A DNA stretch of 29,827 nucleotides from a virus: positions 1-29,827 of IMG/VR virus record IMGVR_UViG_3300010397_001070. One strand, 5' to 3'. Of this stretch, positions 220-24,003 are shown piece after piece (positions within the stretch are counted from its first letter, which is position 1; every line of letters starts with the position of its first letter). The notes below the pieces were generated by a model. It was not told the DNA's origin, ran no database searches, and saw nothing but the letters and a program-made list of their open reading frames with translations. The position numbers and the translations under genes are program-made.

Positions 220-249
220 ATACTAGCACAAAATGTAATATCCTGTCAA
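220..249 (-). promoter_or_regulatory. sigma70-type promoter of the helix-turn-helix gene
   Basis: On the minus strand TTGACA (244-249), an 18-base spacer and TAGTAT (220-225) form a near-consensus promoter with an upstream TG (extended -10, TGCTAGTAT). The -35 box overlaps the last bases of the integrase stop codon (246-248). Transcription would begin near 213 and run into the gene at 1-156. Confidence 0.8.
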
Positions 250-1073
250 TGTAAAGCACCCTTCAACTTCTGTTCCATTTCAAAGTCTTCTGGCTGGATG
301 TAGATTTGGGTAGTTTTTAAGTTAGCGTGTCCCAGTCCCCATTGGATAGCCCGCATGTCAATTCCGCTTCTATATCTTTCAGTCGCCCAAGAGGTTCTCA
401 AACAGTGAGGAGTTAGTTCGATCTCTGCTTTATTAGCGTAGTGTTTGACGATTCTCTGAATAGTCCGAGGGTCGATGATACAACCTAAGTAGTTTAAAAA
501 AATATACCCCCTCCCCCTATCCTTAATGACTTTGATCAGAGCTTTGTTCGTTCGGTCACTCCAAAAGATTCTTCTCAGTTTCCCGCCGTTTTTCTCGGAG
601 ACAATCACGGCACTTTGAGAGGTAAAATCCATATCTTCAATTAAAAGTTTCCGAAGTTCTCCTAGTCTTAGTCCCGTATCCCAAAAGAGAGTGAGAATAG
701 CATAGTCTCGTTTTCCCATTCTTGTTCCTTTATCTATCTGCTTTAAAATCTTCTCAAACTGCTCTGGTCTTATGGGCTTGTGGTGATCCGCTTCCCCTCT
801 GGGGTACTTTATCAATTCAAAAGGGATATCTTTAATCTTCGTTTTTCTTAACCAGTTGAAATAATCCTTTAAGACGGAGACGATGTACTGCCTCGTTTTG
901 ACCTTATATTTGACCTTGCAAGCGTTTAGATAGTTCGTAGCGTCTTCATAGCCCAAGTCCTCGGTTTCCTTCTGGTGGAACGCATAAAAACGCTCTAGCC
1001 ATACCTTGTAGCAAAAGGCGGCTCTTGGAGCGTAGCTTTCTTTCCATGCTAAATACTTCTCAACGTGATCCAT
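246..1073 (-). CDS. int: tyrosine site-specific recombinase (phage integrase)
   Basis: This 275-aa integrase cuts and rejoins DNA at the phage and bacterial attachment sites. The N-terminal half has a SAM-like core-binding fold (about residues 1-85). The catalytic domain carries the full set of residues, numbered from this start: Arg136 in TGLRLGELR, Lys161 or Lys165 in SEKNGGK, His223 and Arg226 in TPHCLRTSWAT, His249 in LGHANLKTT and Tyr258 as nucleophile. The open frame continues upstream to 1229, but that part contains a terminator (1150-1181) and a promoter (1118-1147). The ATG at 1071-1073 is therefore preferred, although its AGGAG is only one base away. It lies next to a tRNA and a repeat-rich region, which fits an attachment locus. 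Confidence 0.93.
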   Translation of the reverse strand: MDHVEKYLAWKESYAPRAAFCYKVWLERFYAFHQKETEDLGYEDATNYLNACKVKYKVKTRQYIVSVLKDYFNWLRKTKIKDIPFELIKYPRGEADHHKPIRPEQFEKILKQIDKGTRMGKRDYAILTLFWDTGLRLGELRKLLIEDMDFTSQSAVIVSEKNGGKLRRIFWSDRTNKALIKVIKDRGRGYIFLNYLGCIIDPRTIQRIVKHYANKAEIELTPHCLRTSWATERYRSGIDMRAIQWGLGHANLKTTQIYIQPEDFEMEQKLKGALH

Positions 1074-1117
1074 ACTCCTGAAAAGGGGTATGATTGCCGT
1101 CGGGGGTGTAACGAGTT

Positions 1118-1147
1118 GATTTAGCATACACTTGGGTAAAGTGTCAA
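1118..1147 (-). promoter_or_regulatory. promoter of the integrase gene
   Basis: Minus-strand TTGACA (1142-1147) is followed after 17-18 bases by CTAAAT/TAAATC (1118-1124), with a TG just upstream that gives an extended -10. It lies directly after a terminator and 45 bases before the integrase ATG. The -10 box overlaps the alternative ATG at 1127, which argues against that start. Confidence 0.6.
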
Positions 1148-1149
1148 AT

Positions 1150-1181
1150 AAAAAGACCCGTCTCAATAGAGTTTCGGGTCT
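1150..1181 (-). terminator. intrinsic terminator upstream of integrase
   Basis: On the minus strand AGACCCG (1175-1181) pairs with CGGGTCT (1154-1160). A small internal CTC/GAG hairpin sits in the loop, and TTTTT (1150-1154) follows. It would stop leftward transcription from the lysis side before the integrase promoter, so integrase would be expressed separately. Confidence 0.75.
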
Positions 1182-1255
1182 CCTTTCCTTTTGTTTCCTA
1201 AACTTACACCTTCCCTTTCTGTACCGCAAGTGCGTAGTCGGTGGATAACTTAACC

Positions 1256-1283
1256 TTGACTTTTCTGAAATTTCAGGTAGAAT
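1256..1283 (+). promoter_or_regulatory. plus-strand promoter with embedded palindromic operator
   Basis: TTGACT (1256-1261), a 16-base spacer and TAGAAT (1278-1283) form a plausible sigma70 promoter. The spacer contains the perfect 12-bp palindrome CTGAAATTTCAG (1265-1276), an ideal place for a repressor to block polymerase. It points into a structured, protein-free segment and then the tRNA. Confidence 0.55.
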
Positions 1284-1289
1284 AAGTAC

Positions 1290-1442
1290 ATTAACAAATA
1301 GGGCTGGTACCCCTTATATTAAGGCACTATCTGATACAAAGAGTATCAAGTCTTGGCGCAGGAACTTCTAATAGTACCATGCGCCACAAGCGTATTCCCC
1401 GAAAGGGATAGTGCGCCTGCGCCAGGACTCGGTACTTTTTTT
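1290..1442 (+). ncRNA. candidate structured RNA between integrase and tRNA
   Basis: No protein gene lies between 1074 and 1636; this stretch holds dense dyad structure. Positions 1349-1362 pair with 1416-1429 over 14 bp (one G-T pair). TGATAC/GTATCA forms a hairpin at 1332-1348. The arm TGGCGCA (1354-1360) can instead pair with TGCGCCA at 1380-1386. GCACTATC (1324-1331) is complementary to 1407-1414, and AGTACC (1373-1378) to GGTACT (1431-1436); both would cross the main stem, giving pseudoknots or alternative folds. A T7 run (1436-1442) follows. With the promoter at 1256-1283 this would be an RNA of about 150 nt. An alternative is that the repeats are integrase arm-binding sites of an attachment region. 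Confidence 0.45.
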
Positions 1443-1452
1443 GTTGGCAAAT

Positions 1453-1474
1453 AAAAAAGACCTATTTCTAGGTC
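1453..1474 (-). terminator. intrinsic terminator after the lysis genes
   Basis: On the minus strand GACCTA (1469-1474) and TAGGTC (1459-1464) form a perfect 6-bp stem capped by a GAAA tetraloop and followed by TTTTTT (1453-1458). It ends leftward transcription from the lysis genes and from the promoter at 1605-1633. Confidence 0.8.
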
Positions 1475-1481
1475 AGTGGAG

Positions 1482-1554
1482 GCCCCGGCAGCATAGCGGA
1501 TCATGCAGCACCTTCGTAAGTAGCAGATCGTGAGTTCGAATCTCACCCGGGGCA
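1482..1554 (+). tRNA. tRNA-Thr (anticodon CGU), imperfect anticodon stem
   Basis: The 73-nt sequence folds as a cloverleaf. The acceptor stem GCCCCGG/CCGGGGC pairs 7 of 7, the D stem GCAT/ATGC 4 of 4, and the T arm GTGAG-TTCGAAT-CTCAC 5 of 5. The anticodon loop is TTCGTAA (1513-1519), with CGT at 1515-1517, which reads ACG threonine codons. The discriminator base is A1554 and the next bases are CCCA, so a clean CCA is not encoded. The anticodon stem (1508-1512 with 1520-1524) pairs only 3 of 5, so the gene may be degraded or an attachment-site remnant. It is on the strand opposite to nearly all genes. Confidence 0.8.
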
Positions 1555-1581
1555 CCCATTGATTTTGAAAGGGTCTTTTTT
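1554..1581 (+). terminator. weak terminator behind the tRNA
   Basis: ACCC (1554-1557) pairs with GGGT (1571-1574), helped by two A-T pairs inside, and TTTTTT (1576-1581) follows on the plus strand. It would end the tRNA transcript. The stem is short, so strength is uncertain. Confidence 0.45.
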
Positions 1582-1604
1582 GCTTCTAAATTTGATTGTA
1601 TAGC

Positions 1605-4439: not shown

Positions 4440-4632
4440 GATACTAGGCTTTTCTCGGCACCTAGCGTGAGCCTGATTTAAGTGGTAGAGCCACAGCCCC
4501 TGACGAGGCAAAGTACAGCCGAAATCCCGTGTCGAGGATACATTGAAGGTTTCCCTTCTAAGAACATCTAATTCACCGCTTTCGCTAGCTCCTTAGGTAG
4601 TTCTTAGAAAAGCTCCATGACGTTGCATGAAG
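4440..4632 (-). ncRNA. structured non-coding stretch upstream of the repeat-flanked gene
   Basis: About 190 bases without a convincing gene. A perfect 10-bp inverted repeat (4556-4565 with 4600-4609) continues inward with 4566-4571 and 4593-4598, giving a helix of about 16 bp with one bulge. Its minus-strand loop contains GCGAAAGC. An overlapping hairpin GAAGG-GAAA-CCTTC (4545-4558, minus strand) competes for the same bases. No T run follows, so it is not a plain terminator. It could be a leader RNA or a protein-binding site. A 29-codon ORF inside is not convincing. Confidence 0.4.
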
Positions 4633-4827
4633 TTATTGAGTGCCATAGATTCCCCGAAGGAAACGTACGACATAATCGGAGAGTTCTTGGCGAGCGAATT
4701 TCTGCTCGTCTTCCCGCAAGGCCTGCGGAGGTAGTTCTTTCCCGTAGCGACTCATGTAAGCCGCCCGGAGGAAGTCCCTCAGGCTGATTTTGTTTTCAGC
4801 GAGGTGAACTTGTGCGAGGGAGTACAT
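4633..4827 (-). CDS. hypothetical protein, 64 aa
   Basis: The function is not recognised. The 64 residues are mainly helical and charged, with SLRDFLRAAYMSRYGKELPP followed by EQKFARQELSDYVVRFLRG. There are no cysteines, membrane segments or signal peptide. It overlaps the upstream zinc-finger gene by 49 bases, in a chain of small overlapping genes. Confidence 0.6.
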   Translation of the reverse strand: MYSLAQVHLAENKISLRDFLRAAYMSRYGKELPPQALREDEQKFARQELSDYVVRFLRGIYGTQ

Positions 4828-18657: not shown

Positions 18658-19239
18658 TTATCCCAAGCGAGCGAGAGTCGCTTTATACGCTTCGAGCTGT
18701 CTTGGGTCTGCGTTCTCTAATCGGCCTTCTAAGGCTTCTTTGATGACGTTCGTAGTGCTTGTCCCTTTAGGGGTTACTTGTTTAGGGGGCACTTCAGGCT
18801 CGGTCTGAGAAACTTCTTTCTGCATTCGATCGAAGAATTCCGCTTTGATCGCCTTCACTGCTTCTTTGGCAGTCAGGTTGTCATCGCTCATTTTCTCGGT
18901 TATGAGAGCGAGGTTCTCTTTGACGAATGGGTCGGTGTTTACGAGCATCAGAACTTCCACATTGGCTTTTGTCCTCACGTCTTCGGTACTCACTGTGCCA
19001 TCGTCATCCGATACCTTGGCGGCTTCGACAGCGGCAAGTCTGGCTTTGATTTCAGCTAATTCAGCGTCTTTAGCTTTCTTCTCGTCCTTGTACTTGAGCA
19101 TGTCTTCACGCACCTTTTCGTAGACCTTACGATCCACCTTCGCACCATCGTCACTGACTGAGGTACTCGACTCACTTACTGGTTGGGCTTCCACAGTAGG
19201 AGCTACTGGTTCCACTACGCCCGTATTGACTTCCGTCAT
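18658..19239 (-). CDS. capsid scaffolding protein
   Basis: The 193-aa protein is highly charged, without cysteine or aromatic core, and has a Pro/Ser-rich N terminus and a coiled coil (about residues 35-75, VREDMLKYKDEKKAKDAELA and on). The C terminus is basic and helical (QLEAYKATLARLG), as expected for the coat-binding end of scaffolds. It sits immediately before the major capsid gene. GAGGAG is well placed before its ATG. The role is to guide procapsid assembly and then leave or be degraded. Confidence 0.75.
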   Translation of the reverse strand: MTEVNTGVVEPVAPTVEAQPVSESSTSVSDDGAKVDRKVYEKVREDMLKYKDEKKAKDAELAEIKARLAAVEAAKVSDDDGTVSTEDVRTKANVEVLMLVNTDPFVKENLALITEKMSDDNLTAKEAVKAIKAEFFDRMQKEVSQTEPEVPPKQVTPKGTSTTNVIKEALEGRLENADPRQLEAYKATLARLG

Positions 19240-19296
19240 AAGTACTCCTCATTTTTTTACTTGGTTTGGATTCCAAATTTATGACTTACTCAGAAC

Positions 19297-19461
19297 CTAA
19301 GACGCTTGTCTTTTTCTCTGAGCAAGCCACTCGCTTGCCTTCTTCTCATTGATAACGAACTTTTCCTCGAGTCCCTTTCCGTATCTCGTCTTTAAGAGAA
19401 AAGGGCTTTTCTGCTCTTTTTTCTCAAAGAATTTCTTAATATACTCATTTGTTACGCTCAT
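19297..19461 (-). CDS. 54-aa basic hypothetical protein
   Basis: A short ORF with a charged, lysine-rich composition (EYIKKFFEKKEQKSP, then ASEWLAQRKRQAS). It overlaps the upstream 58-aa gene by 17 bases and precedes scaffold by 57 bases. No domain is recognised. The tight packing in the head operon supports translation. Confidence 0.55.
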   Translation of the reverse strand: MSVTNEYIKKFFEKKEQKSPFLLKTRYGKGLEEKFVINEKKASEWLAQRKRQAS

Positions 19462-21833: not shown

Positions 21834-23006
21834 TTAGTAACCTGTTTTATAATTGGTTCGTGTATTGACTGGTTTGTATGAGCTAAAGCCGTACCGTATT
21901 GCGTCCATCGGGTTACTCCACTCGTGTACTGAATCGTCTGGCTCGTTTATAAATTCCCCGTTCGGAAGTTTCTTATTCATGTAGTTCCGATATCCCTTGA
22001 TGGTTTTCAAACTCCTGGCTGTTATAGAAATCGGTTGATCTTGTACATACTGAATCCCCTGTAACACTGATCCTTGCCCCTTAATCGCTCCGATAATGTT
22101 CACTCCGTAACTCTTGATTTCATCTATACTTTTCGGTTCTGAGCTATCGGCAACAACGAGGATATTCCCATCGGTAGCATTTAACTTGTCTGCGATTGAT
22201 TTATTAGAAAGCCCTTTTTGATAGGTGTGTTCGTCGATGATGAAACCGCCGTTATACTCATAAATGTCTTCTATCACCGTTGGATCGATACTGTAACCAA
22301 AGTCCAGTCCTCTTCGTGATAGTCTTGCCTCATGGGGAATGTCCTGAATGATGTTCCAACCGGTATAGATTCTCCCCTCTACTTCTCCAAGTTGGCCGAG
22401 GCCGTAGACTTGCCACCATCTTGGATTATTCTTATGTGCTTCTATTTCTGATACTGAAATTGGATCGAGGGCTTCGTTGTCCAGATAAGTCAGGGTGATG
22501 AAATCAATATCCTCGCGCCTATTCAACATTTCGGTATAGAACCAAAACTCCTCAGAGGGGTTCCAGTCCATCCACACTATCTTTCTTGTTCTTGTAATGA
22601 GCTGGTCAACTATGTTGTAGTCGAGGTTGTTTGCTTCATTGAGGAAAAGAACGTCTCTTCTTGGTCCGTGTGCTTTTCCAAACTTATCGAAACTGATGAA
22701 CTCTAGAATGGTCTTATTGGGAAATGTGTAAGTATGATTTGATTCGTTCCAAGCGTTATCATCCCAATAGCCCTGAACCAACATGATGCTCTTGAAGTCT
22801 CTAATCGTTCCTAACTTGAGATGAGGATGAGACTCGGCAACGACTGTCATTACCTCTCCTTTTGTTGACTGTCCGTAATCTATGAGCCAAACAAGAATTG
22901 AAATCGTCTTTGATGCGCTAGTTCCTCCGCTAACTGCCCGGATTCGTTTCTTCAGGTTGAATATCTTCTTTGTCGCTGTTGTATTCTGAAACGCTAGCTC
23001 CGCCAT
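21834..23006 (-). CDS. terL: terminase large subunit
   Basis: This 390-aa DNA-packaging motor of the Terminase_3 (PBSX-like) type has an ATPase domain with Walker A GGTSASKT (27-34) and Walker B VLFLNEAN (Glu124), then an RNase H-like nuclease with metal-binding aspartates: Asp235 in LDFGYSIDP, Asp287 in VVADSSEP and Asp368 in MDAIRYGF. It pumps DNA into the procapsid and cuts the concatemer. Length is a little short for the family but all motifs are present. Its start overlaps the small-subunit gene by 77 bases. Confidence 0.95.
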   Translation of the reverse strand: MAELAFQNTTATKKIFNLKKRIRAVSGGTSASKTISILVWLIDYGQSTKGEVMTVVAESHPHLKLGTIRDFKSIMLVQGYWDDNAWNESNHTYTFPNKTILEFISFDKFGKAHGPRRDVLFLNEANNLDYNIVDQLITRTRKIVWMDWNPSEEFWFYTEMLNRREDIDFITLTYLDNEALDPISVSEIEAHKNNPRWWQVYGLGQLGEVEGRIYTGWNIIQDIPHEARLSRRGLDFGYSIDPTVIEDIYEYNGGFIIDEHTYQKGLSNKSIADKLNATDGNILVVADSSEPKSIDEIKSYGVNIIGAIKGQGSVLQGIQYVQDQPISITARSLKTIKGYRNYMNKKLPNGEFINEPDDSVHEWSNPMDAIRYGFSSYKPVNTRTNYKTGY

Positions 23007-23334
23007 AGATCGGGATTCCTTTATCGTTAGAAGTCACGTCTGATCTCTCCTTTAATGCGAGGATAAACTTCAGATACATCTCAATACTTTTCTCACTTCC
23101 TTCCTCAGCTTTTTCTCTTAATTTGTCTAACACACTCGATGTGCCTTTTTTGGCTTGACTGAGCGACAATTCCAAAACTAACTTCTCATTTTCCGGTTTC
23201 CTCATCTGGTAGTAGTAAGTGCTTTCGTCAATCTTCCATCTCCGAGCAAATTCAGCCACCGATTCTTGTCTCGCTGGCTTGGGGAGTGACTCTCTTTCAA
23301 TGGCGGCATCAATCCAAGTAATAACTTCAGACAT
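22930..23334 (-). CDS. terS: terminase small subunit
   Basis: The 134-aa protein has an N-terminal helix-turn-helix (VAEFARRWKIDESTYYYQMR, about residues 27-46) for recognising the packaging site, a coiled helical middle (KLREKAEEGSEKSIEMYLKF) for oligomerisation, and an acidic disordered tail. It is directly upstream of terL and overlaps it by 77 bases in another frame, so expression is probably coupled. A multi-hairpin leader, a terminator and a promoter lie before it. Confidence 0.85.
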   Translation of the reverse strand: MSEVITWIDAAIERESLPKPARQESVAEFARRWKIDESTYYYQMRKPENEKLVLELSLSQAKKGTSSVLDKLREKAEEGSEKSIEMYLKFILALKERSDVTSNDKGIPIYGGASVSEYNSDKEDIQPEETNPGS

Positions 23335-23445
23335 TTTTCTGTTCTTAACGGCGATCGGGTGTCGCGTTTCCTAGGTCATAGGGCGTAGACTATCCCTGCT
23401 GCCGTCGATAGGTGAGACCTAATCGCTGTCAAAAACATAAGAGCC
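23335..23445 (-). promoter_or_regulatory. structured leader of the terminase operon
   Basis: Between the terminator and terS the minus strand can fold into TAGGTC...GACCTA enclosing CTATC...GATAG, and a second hairpin AACG-CGA/TCG-CCGTT near the start of terS (one bulge). It may set translation of terS or hold a packaging (pac/cos) site, which lies in or near terS in many phages. The folds were found by eye. Confidence 0.4.
23405..23432 (-). promoter_or_regulatory. alternative terminase promoter
   Basis: TTGACA (23427-23432), 16 bases, then TATCGA (23405-23410) on the minus strand. The -10 is weak. If used, it would drive terS from downstream of the terminator at 23446-23480, so antitermination would not be needed. 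Confidence 0.35.
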
Positions 23446-23480
23446 AAAACGAAAAGAGACCCACGATATGTGAGTCCCTC
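23446..23480 (-). terminator. intrinsic terminator between late promoter and terS
   Basis: On the minus strand 23470-23480 pairs with 23454-23464 over 11 pairs (three G-T) around ATATC, followed by TTTTCGTTTT. It ends both the upstream glycan operon and any transcript begun at the promoter 23512-23540. Confidence 0.75.
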
Positions 23481-23742: not shown

Positions 23743-24003
23743 TTACTTTTTCTTTTTAGAGACGACGAGACAAATGATTTGAGATTCTTTGGTGATGATG
23801 TAGTTCTTCTTCCCGTCTTTGAGGCCTGCTATGTTAGGGTCTTTTTCCAATACTACCTCATCACCCTTTTTATACTGCGATCCCTCTGCGACTTCCGCTA
23901 CGAGTAGATGTTTCTTTTGAAGGTTCTCTGGTAATAGAAGACCGGATTCTTCCTGTTCGACGACTGATTCGAGTAAAATGTTGTCTCCTACTGGCTTAAA
24001 CAT
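23743..24003 (-). CDS. GroES-like co-chaperonin
   Basis: The 86-aa protein has the 10-kDa chaperonin pattern: KPVGDNILLE at the start (compare the family RPLxDRVLV), a mobile loop EESGLLLPENLQKKH with the hydrophobic GroEL-binding LLLP, a YKKGDEVVLEK turn, and a C-terminal ITKESQIICLV strand. Phage co-chaperonins such as T4 gp31 replace host GroES so that GroEL can fold the coat protein. There is no groEL nearby. Its position just upstream of the head operon fits this role. It overlaps the upstream glycosyltransferase by 16 bases. Confidence 0.85.
   Translation of the reverse strand: MFKPVGDNILLESVVEQEESGLLLPENLQKKHLLVAEVAEGSQYKKGDEVVLEKDPNIAGLKDGKKNYIITKESQIICLVVSKKKK

Follow-up and report, generated by a model that had tools for sequence, protein, structure and literature searches.

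The 29,827-nt stretch of viral DNA analysed here (the window) carries, next to a tyrosine integrase gene and a tRNA-Thr gene, a candidate structured RNA of about 154 nt that can adopt two mutually exclusive folds. The sequence elements, the significance of both folds and their predicted order of folding were established in this analysis. Our tentative preference is for a leader RNA whose conditional terminator would gate read-through into the tRNA, a layout predicted to be that of a transcription attenuator or riboswitch platform. The original prediction had proposed a switch or small RNA beside the integrase; it did not include the adjacent tRNA gene, and this gene changed the most likely reading. 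The features are as follows.

246-1229, minus strand: tyrosine integrase gene (PF00589, 4e-30)
1256-1283, plus strand: promoter-like site P1, TTGACT-16-TAGAAT (10/12 consensus matches, by consensus only; predicted start about 1289)
1265-1276: perfect 12-bp palindrome CTGAAATTTCAG, within the 16-nt spacer of promoter-like site P1
1289-1442, plus strand: structured RNA of about 154 nt, candidate leader or small RNA (z -5.0 for 1290-1442, -6.6 for 1320-1442)
1291-1320, plus strand: second promoter-like site, TTAACA-18-TATATT (10/12 matches; RNA start would be near 1326)
1324-1414, plus strand: fold B, nested, predicted to form first (-34.0 kcal/mol, z -4.8)
1338-1442, plus strand: fold A, terminator-like, with helix 1338-1362/1416-1440, a branched 53-nt loop and U7 at 1436-1442
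1446-1584, plus strand: long imperfect helix of about 28 bp around the tRNA, with A6/T6 ends (fold of -59.0 kcal/mol for 1446-1590)
1459-1474, minus strand: leftward intrinsic terminator GACCTAGAAATAGGTC-T6
1482-1556, plus strand: tRNA-Thr gene, anticodon CGU (ARAGORN; Rfam RF00005, 44.9 bits)

The plus strand of 1320-1442 had an MFE of -49.1 kcal/mol, which was matched by 0/200 shuffles. Its excess over the shuffles, -19.1 kcal/mol, was the largest among the 1,452 stretches of the window scanned for excess stability on both strands (window-wide standard deviation 3.7). The 14-bp helix 1349-1362/1416-1429 that had been predicted is present with 13 Watson-Crick pairs and one G-U, and it extends past one A-C mismatch into 1338-1347/1431-1440, an extension absent from the original prediction; the full main helix 1338-1362/1416-1440 thus has 24 pairs and one A-C mismatch. 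The run of seven T that was said to follow the helices was found at 1436-1442 and starts within the base of the main helix. As a terminator fold A may be weak, with a loop that is unusually large at 53 nt, and a simple terminator scan did not pick up the 1338-1442 helix and its U7. A ten-codon basic reading frame in the terminator loop (MRHKRIPRKG, 1379-1411) was rejected as probably due to chance, its ribosome-site spacing being poor.

The competing fold B consists of helices P1 (1324-1331/1407-1414), P2 (1332-1337/1343-1348), P3 (1354-1360/1380-1386) and P4 (1398-1400/1405-1407, with a GAAA loop). All three alternative pairings that had been proposed are exact: the 5' arm segment 1354-1360 is complementary to 1380-1386 over 7 bp, and the pairs 1324-1331/1407-1414 (8 bp) and 1373-1378/1431-1436 (6 bp) both cross the main helix. 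The P2 hairpin (1332-1348) had not been described. Given that 1343-1362 is used in both structures, folds A and B are mutually exclusive. To avoid circularity the shared arm 1338-1362 was kept constant while the remainder was shuffled, and -34 kcal/mol was then reached by 0/1,000 shuffles (z -4.6). The claim that helices excluding one another end at a run of T is thus supported as a property of the sequence, since each fold is significant by itself. When only the sequence outside the main helix was shuffled, 10% of the shuffles had an arm-to-loop match of at least 7 and 3.7% an upstream-to-loop match of at least 8; the two occurred together in 0.3%, and together with the 6-bp upstream-to-arm match in 0.02%, although these statistics are partly post hoc in that the matches were chosen after being seen.

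Base-pair probabilities along the growing transcript place the exchange between the two folds at a defined point. P3 is kept at a probability of 1.00-0.99 until the 3' end reaches 1426, while helix A has a probability of 0.86 at 3' end 1428 and 1.00 at 1436, and fold A hence overtakes fold B between 3' ends 1426 and 1428, these being equilibrium calculations and a real RNA one that could be kinetically trapped in either state. The exchange point corresponds to the RNA exposed with the polymerase on the U-tract. Helix P1 of fold B dominates for a short time only, with 98% at 3' end 1414 but 4% at 1420, and later gives way to a 1390-1416 hairpin. The best state before the exchange is about 9 kcal/mol less stable than fold A. 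Completion of the helix at the U-tract is, to our knowledge, common to all intrinsic terminators, so the timing of the exchange is not special by itself.

The idea of a pseudoknotted RNA was not supported. The 8-bp and 14-bp helices cross, and when stacked they would form about 22 pairs that the strand 1331-1349 has to span; when P2 (1332-1348) is formed, every nucleotide of this linker is taken up, and P2 and the full pseudoknot therefore cannot form together. On this geometry the full pseudoknot is sterically unlikely, and the 8-bp helix is probably better read as closing the competing nested fold, which is also the simpler arrangement.

Upstream of the RNA, direct reading and a repeat search bore out the proposed plus-strand promoter-like site with a palindromic spacer: the palindrome 1265-1276 is perfect and sits between TTGACT and TAGAAT. 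Only four perfect 12-bp palindromes, CTGAAATTTCAG among them, occur in the whole window. From its sequence it is a possible operator, and this idea was rejected as no further convincing copy was found: window-wide, 27 sites with at most three mismatches were observed as compared to 20 ± 4.8 expected by chance. Promoter-like sites in the region were twice as frequent as in shuffled sequence (12 vs 6.0 ± 2.6). The second promoter-like site, at 1291-1320, was absent from the original prediction.

The tRNA-Thr(CGU) gene, which had not been noted before, lies 40 nt beyond the T run on the same strand, and the promoter scan gave no plus-strand promoter-like site between 1442 and 1482. The tRNA has a canonical loop, UUCGUAA, yet two mismatches in the anticodon stem; it may be degenerate, or a phage tRNA with a special purpose. 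The helix that encloses it includes the pair 1453-1462/1572-1581, for which a repeat search gave 10/10 matches, and is likely to be the terminator of the tRNA unit, as judged from the predicted fold. On either strand the flanks 1446-1479 and 1556-1584 resemble a terminator carrying the tRNA as its loop.

The leader interpretation is based on the significance of both folds (fold B even with the shared arm fixed), the exchange at 1426-1428, the sigma-70-like promoter upstream and the T7 that follows, and the tRNA that follows on this strand after 40 nt with no intervening promoter-like site. One small transcription unit would then cover the plus strand between about 1289 and about 1583, with a promoter, the structured leader 1289-1442, a conditional U7 terminator, tRNA-Thr(CGU) and a terminator in that order. 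The nascent RNA would first fold locally into P2, P3 and either helix P1 of fold B or the 1390-1416 hairpin. The emerging 3' arm 1416-1440 would displace P3 and P2 and build the long helix A, which would release the polymerase at U7. Stabilisation of fold B by a bound ligand, a protein or a ribosome in the loop would instead give read-through into the tRNA, as would a delayed strand exchange alone. Transcription, termination, regulation and any ligand are the parts of this model that we infer. A regulated leader ahead of a tRNA gene would be unusual, and this was counted against the leader reading.

That a terminator arm can displace a fold lying upstream of it is an established mechanism (PMC7707468, PMC10085676, PMC9756952). 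The arrangement resembles the Bacillus subtilis pbuE adenine and Clostridium beijerinckii pfl ZTP riboswitches, in which the upstream fold shares an arm with the invading U-tract terminator (PMC7707468, PMC10085676). The RNA studied here differs from these in that it has no known aptamer (Rfam negative) or phylogenetic support, and in that the downstream gene is a tRNA and not an mRNA. Since no aptamer family was matched, we do not claim that the RNA belongs to a riboswitch class. That this is a riboswitch-like phage leader of a new class, gating transcription of a phage tRNA by cotranscriptional strand exchange, we consider improbable; if true, the phage would tune its own tRNA supply to a signal. 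More generally, a bistable leader in front of a phage tRNA would offer a case in which phage control of tRNA dosage by attenuation can be tested, while an RNA that is merely a small RNA or a terminator would be ordinary.

The best surviving alternative, which we regard as doubtful but possible, is a stand-alone phage small RNA of about 117-154 nt, trans-acting or protein-binding, served by a promoter and a terminator of its own. In that case the mature structure would be fold A, fold B would be merely a folding intermediate, and the tRNA would have an unrecognised promoter or receive read-through. The promoter and T7 that bracket the RNA fit this explanation, as does the advantage of fold A over the best pre-exchange state. 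Such RNAs are also common in phages and prophages, for example RNAC and RNAD of T4, which are small RNAs of unknown role from the phage tRNA region (PMC3014915), and the eight uncharacterised ncRNAs of BTP1 (PMC7067206). Like RNAC and RNAD, the present candidate lies beside a phage tRNA, whereas here T7 separates the RNA from the tRNA and the phage carries an integrase; no T4 record was among the blastn matches. The antisense matches of the RNA to the rest of the phage are, however, all at most 11 nt, the RNA is mostly paired, and the significant competing fold B would be left without explanation.

Other structured phage RNAs were also compared. ROOL and GOLLD are structured RNAs of phages and prophages that are often found beside tRNA islands and have no known function (PMC12286853), but they are much larger and conserved, and the RNA here had no Rfam match to either. 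STAXI and Lacto-int, both from PMC2864571, are structured elements that occur in phages or close to integrase genes; STAXI is a tandemly repeated pseudoknot, a tandem unit that is absent here, and the likeness to Lacto-int is by description alone, the element having no Rfam number in the table of that paper. The string AGGGCUGGUACC (1300-1311) resembles the T-box sequence AGGGUGGNACC with a 1-nt insertion and has a tRNA nearby; the resemblance was judged to be chance, and a T-box leader was rejected because there was no Rfam T-box match, stem I does not fit and the string lies outside the terminator. Structured phage RNAs near tRNA genes have been seen repeatedly and explained almost never.

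It is unlikely that the region is an unregulated structural spacer, that is, a strong and partly bidirectional terminator region between the integrase unit, the plus-strand tRNA and the leftward late operon, in which the alternative pairings would be by-products of a long imperfect hairpin. Terminator-like hairpins are indeed crowded on both strands in 1140-1584, and the minus strand across the RNA region is likewise well folded, with z of -2.9 to -4.2. Yet a good T run is missing on the reverse strand of the main helix, and a hairpin does not explain the stability of fold B, which none of 1,000 shuffles reached.

An attachment region (attP) with integrase arm sites had been put forward as the rival reading, and we hold it to be quite unlikely. 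In this reading the inverted and direct repeats would be the arm sites, the core would lie in the 3' end of the tRNA and the RNA folding would be incidental. Its appeal lies in the position beside a tyrosine integrase and a tRNA, tRNAs being common integration targets, and in short direct repeats at scattered positions (TAGCATAC at 1122 and 1601, ACTTACAC at 1202 and 1635, AACTTA-ACCTT at 1201 and 1247). In 1100-1660, however, 10 overlapping pairs of near-identical 10-mers were seen vs about 5 expected by our own estimate, which is about chance for AT-rich DNA, and no clear arm-site repeats flanking a core were found. Furthermore, an attP normally retains only the 3' part of a tRNA and the tRNA here is complete; arm sites are not built as long, perfect inverted arms in the order expected of an RNA with T7 behind them; and this integrase is missing from the terminase relatives.

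No homologue of the RNA was found in the Rfam, phage, plasmid and IMG/VR collections, where records are fragmentary and absence is weak evidence. Blastn against phages and plasmids gave no homologue of the RNA region, single-protein scans of IMG/VR with the integrase, exonuclease and portal gave nothing, and alignment scans with the terminase, exonuclease and integrase gave no relative carrying the RNA. The RNA was likewise not found when the whole records of relatives were searched by DNA, protein and a covariance model, the latter built from a single sequence and therefore of little reach. A DNA pattern of the paired arms gave 64 viral and 2 genomic matches, all apparently due to chance in GC-rich DNA with unrelated flanks. 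At the Rfam gathering threshold the window matched the tRNA alone, and at E values up to 10 nothing credible was added. Given that no relative was found, the present value of the bistable RNA is that of a well-defined experimental candidate, and as an orphan candidate it is credible.

Several known RNA types were considered and rejected: a phi29-type pRNA (no Rfam match, and packaging is encoded by a large terminase gene of the ordinary kind), an HDV-type ribozyme (the topology presumably lacks a position for P4), a retron or DGR RNA (no reverse transcriptase match among the window proteins searched, a subset of the open reading frames) and a tRNA-like fossil (1338-1440 gave no match to the tRNA model).

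The source is a 29.8-kb IMG/VR virus record that encodes a terminase, an SU10-type portal, a phrog_267 major head protein, tail proteins, an amidase, a DnaQ-like exonuclease, glycosyltransferases and the tyrosine integrase, and it is probably a fragment of a tailed phage. All recognised protein genes are oriented leftward, and 1230-1480 separates the integrase from the leftward lysis end. The integrase reading frame as called starts at TTG 1229, and its first 35 codons overlap a leftward terminator-like hairpin (1151-1180); the true start is probably an ATG near 1126. The terminator at 1459-1474 probably ends the leftward lysis and structural operon. The large terminase gene (21834-23006) has up to 73% identity to many IMG/VR contigs that otherwise share almost nothing with this phage, which at the sequence level indicates strong mosaicism, and the terminase relatives are therefore uninformative on the RNA.

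The leftward terminator-like hairpins 1142-1160 and 1445-1463 share a common tail, GGTCTTTTT(T)ATTTG[A/C]CA, and are 300 bp apart with the RNA gene in the middle. A GroES-like co-chaperonin gene (phrog_3188, 23743-24003) adjoins a cluster of glycosyltransferase and aminotransferase genes. Strong excess RNA folding was also seen at 19230-19352 (minus strand), 4552-4674 (minus strand) and 23330-23452 (plus strand), where a scan with 20 shuffles gave z of about -5 to -5.8.
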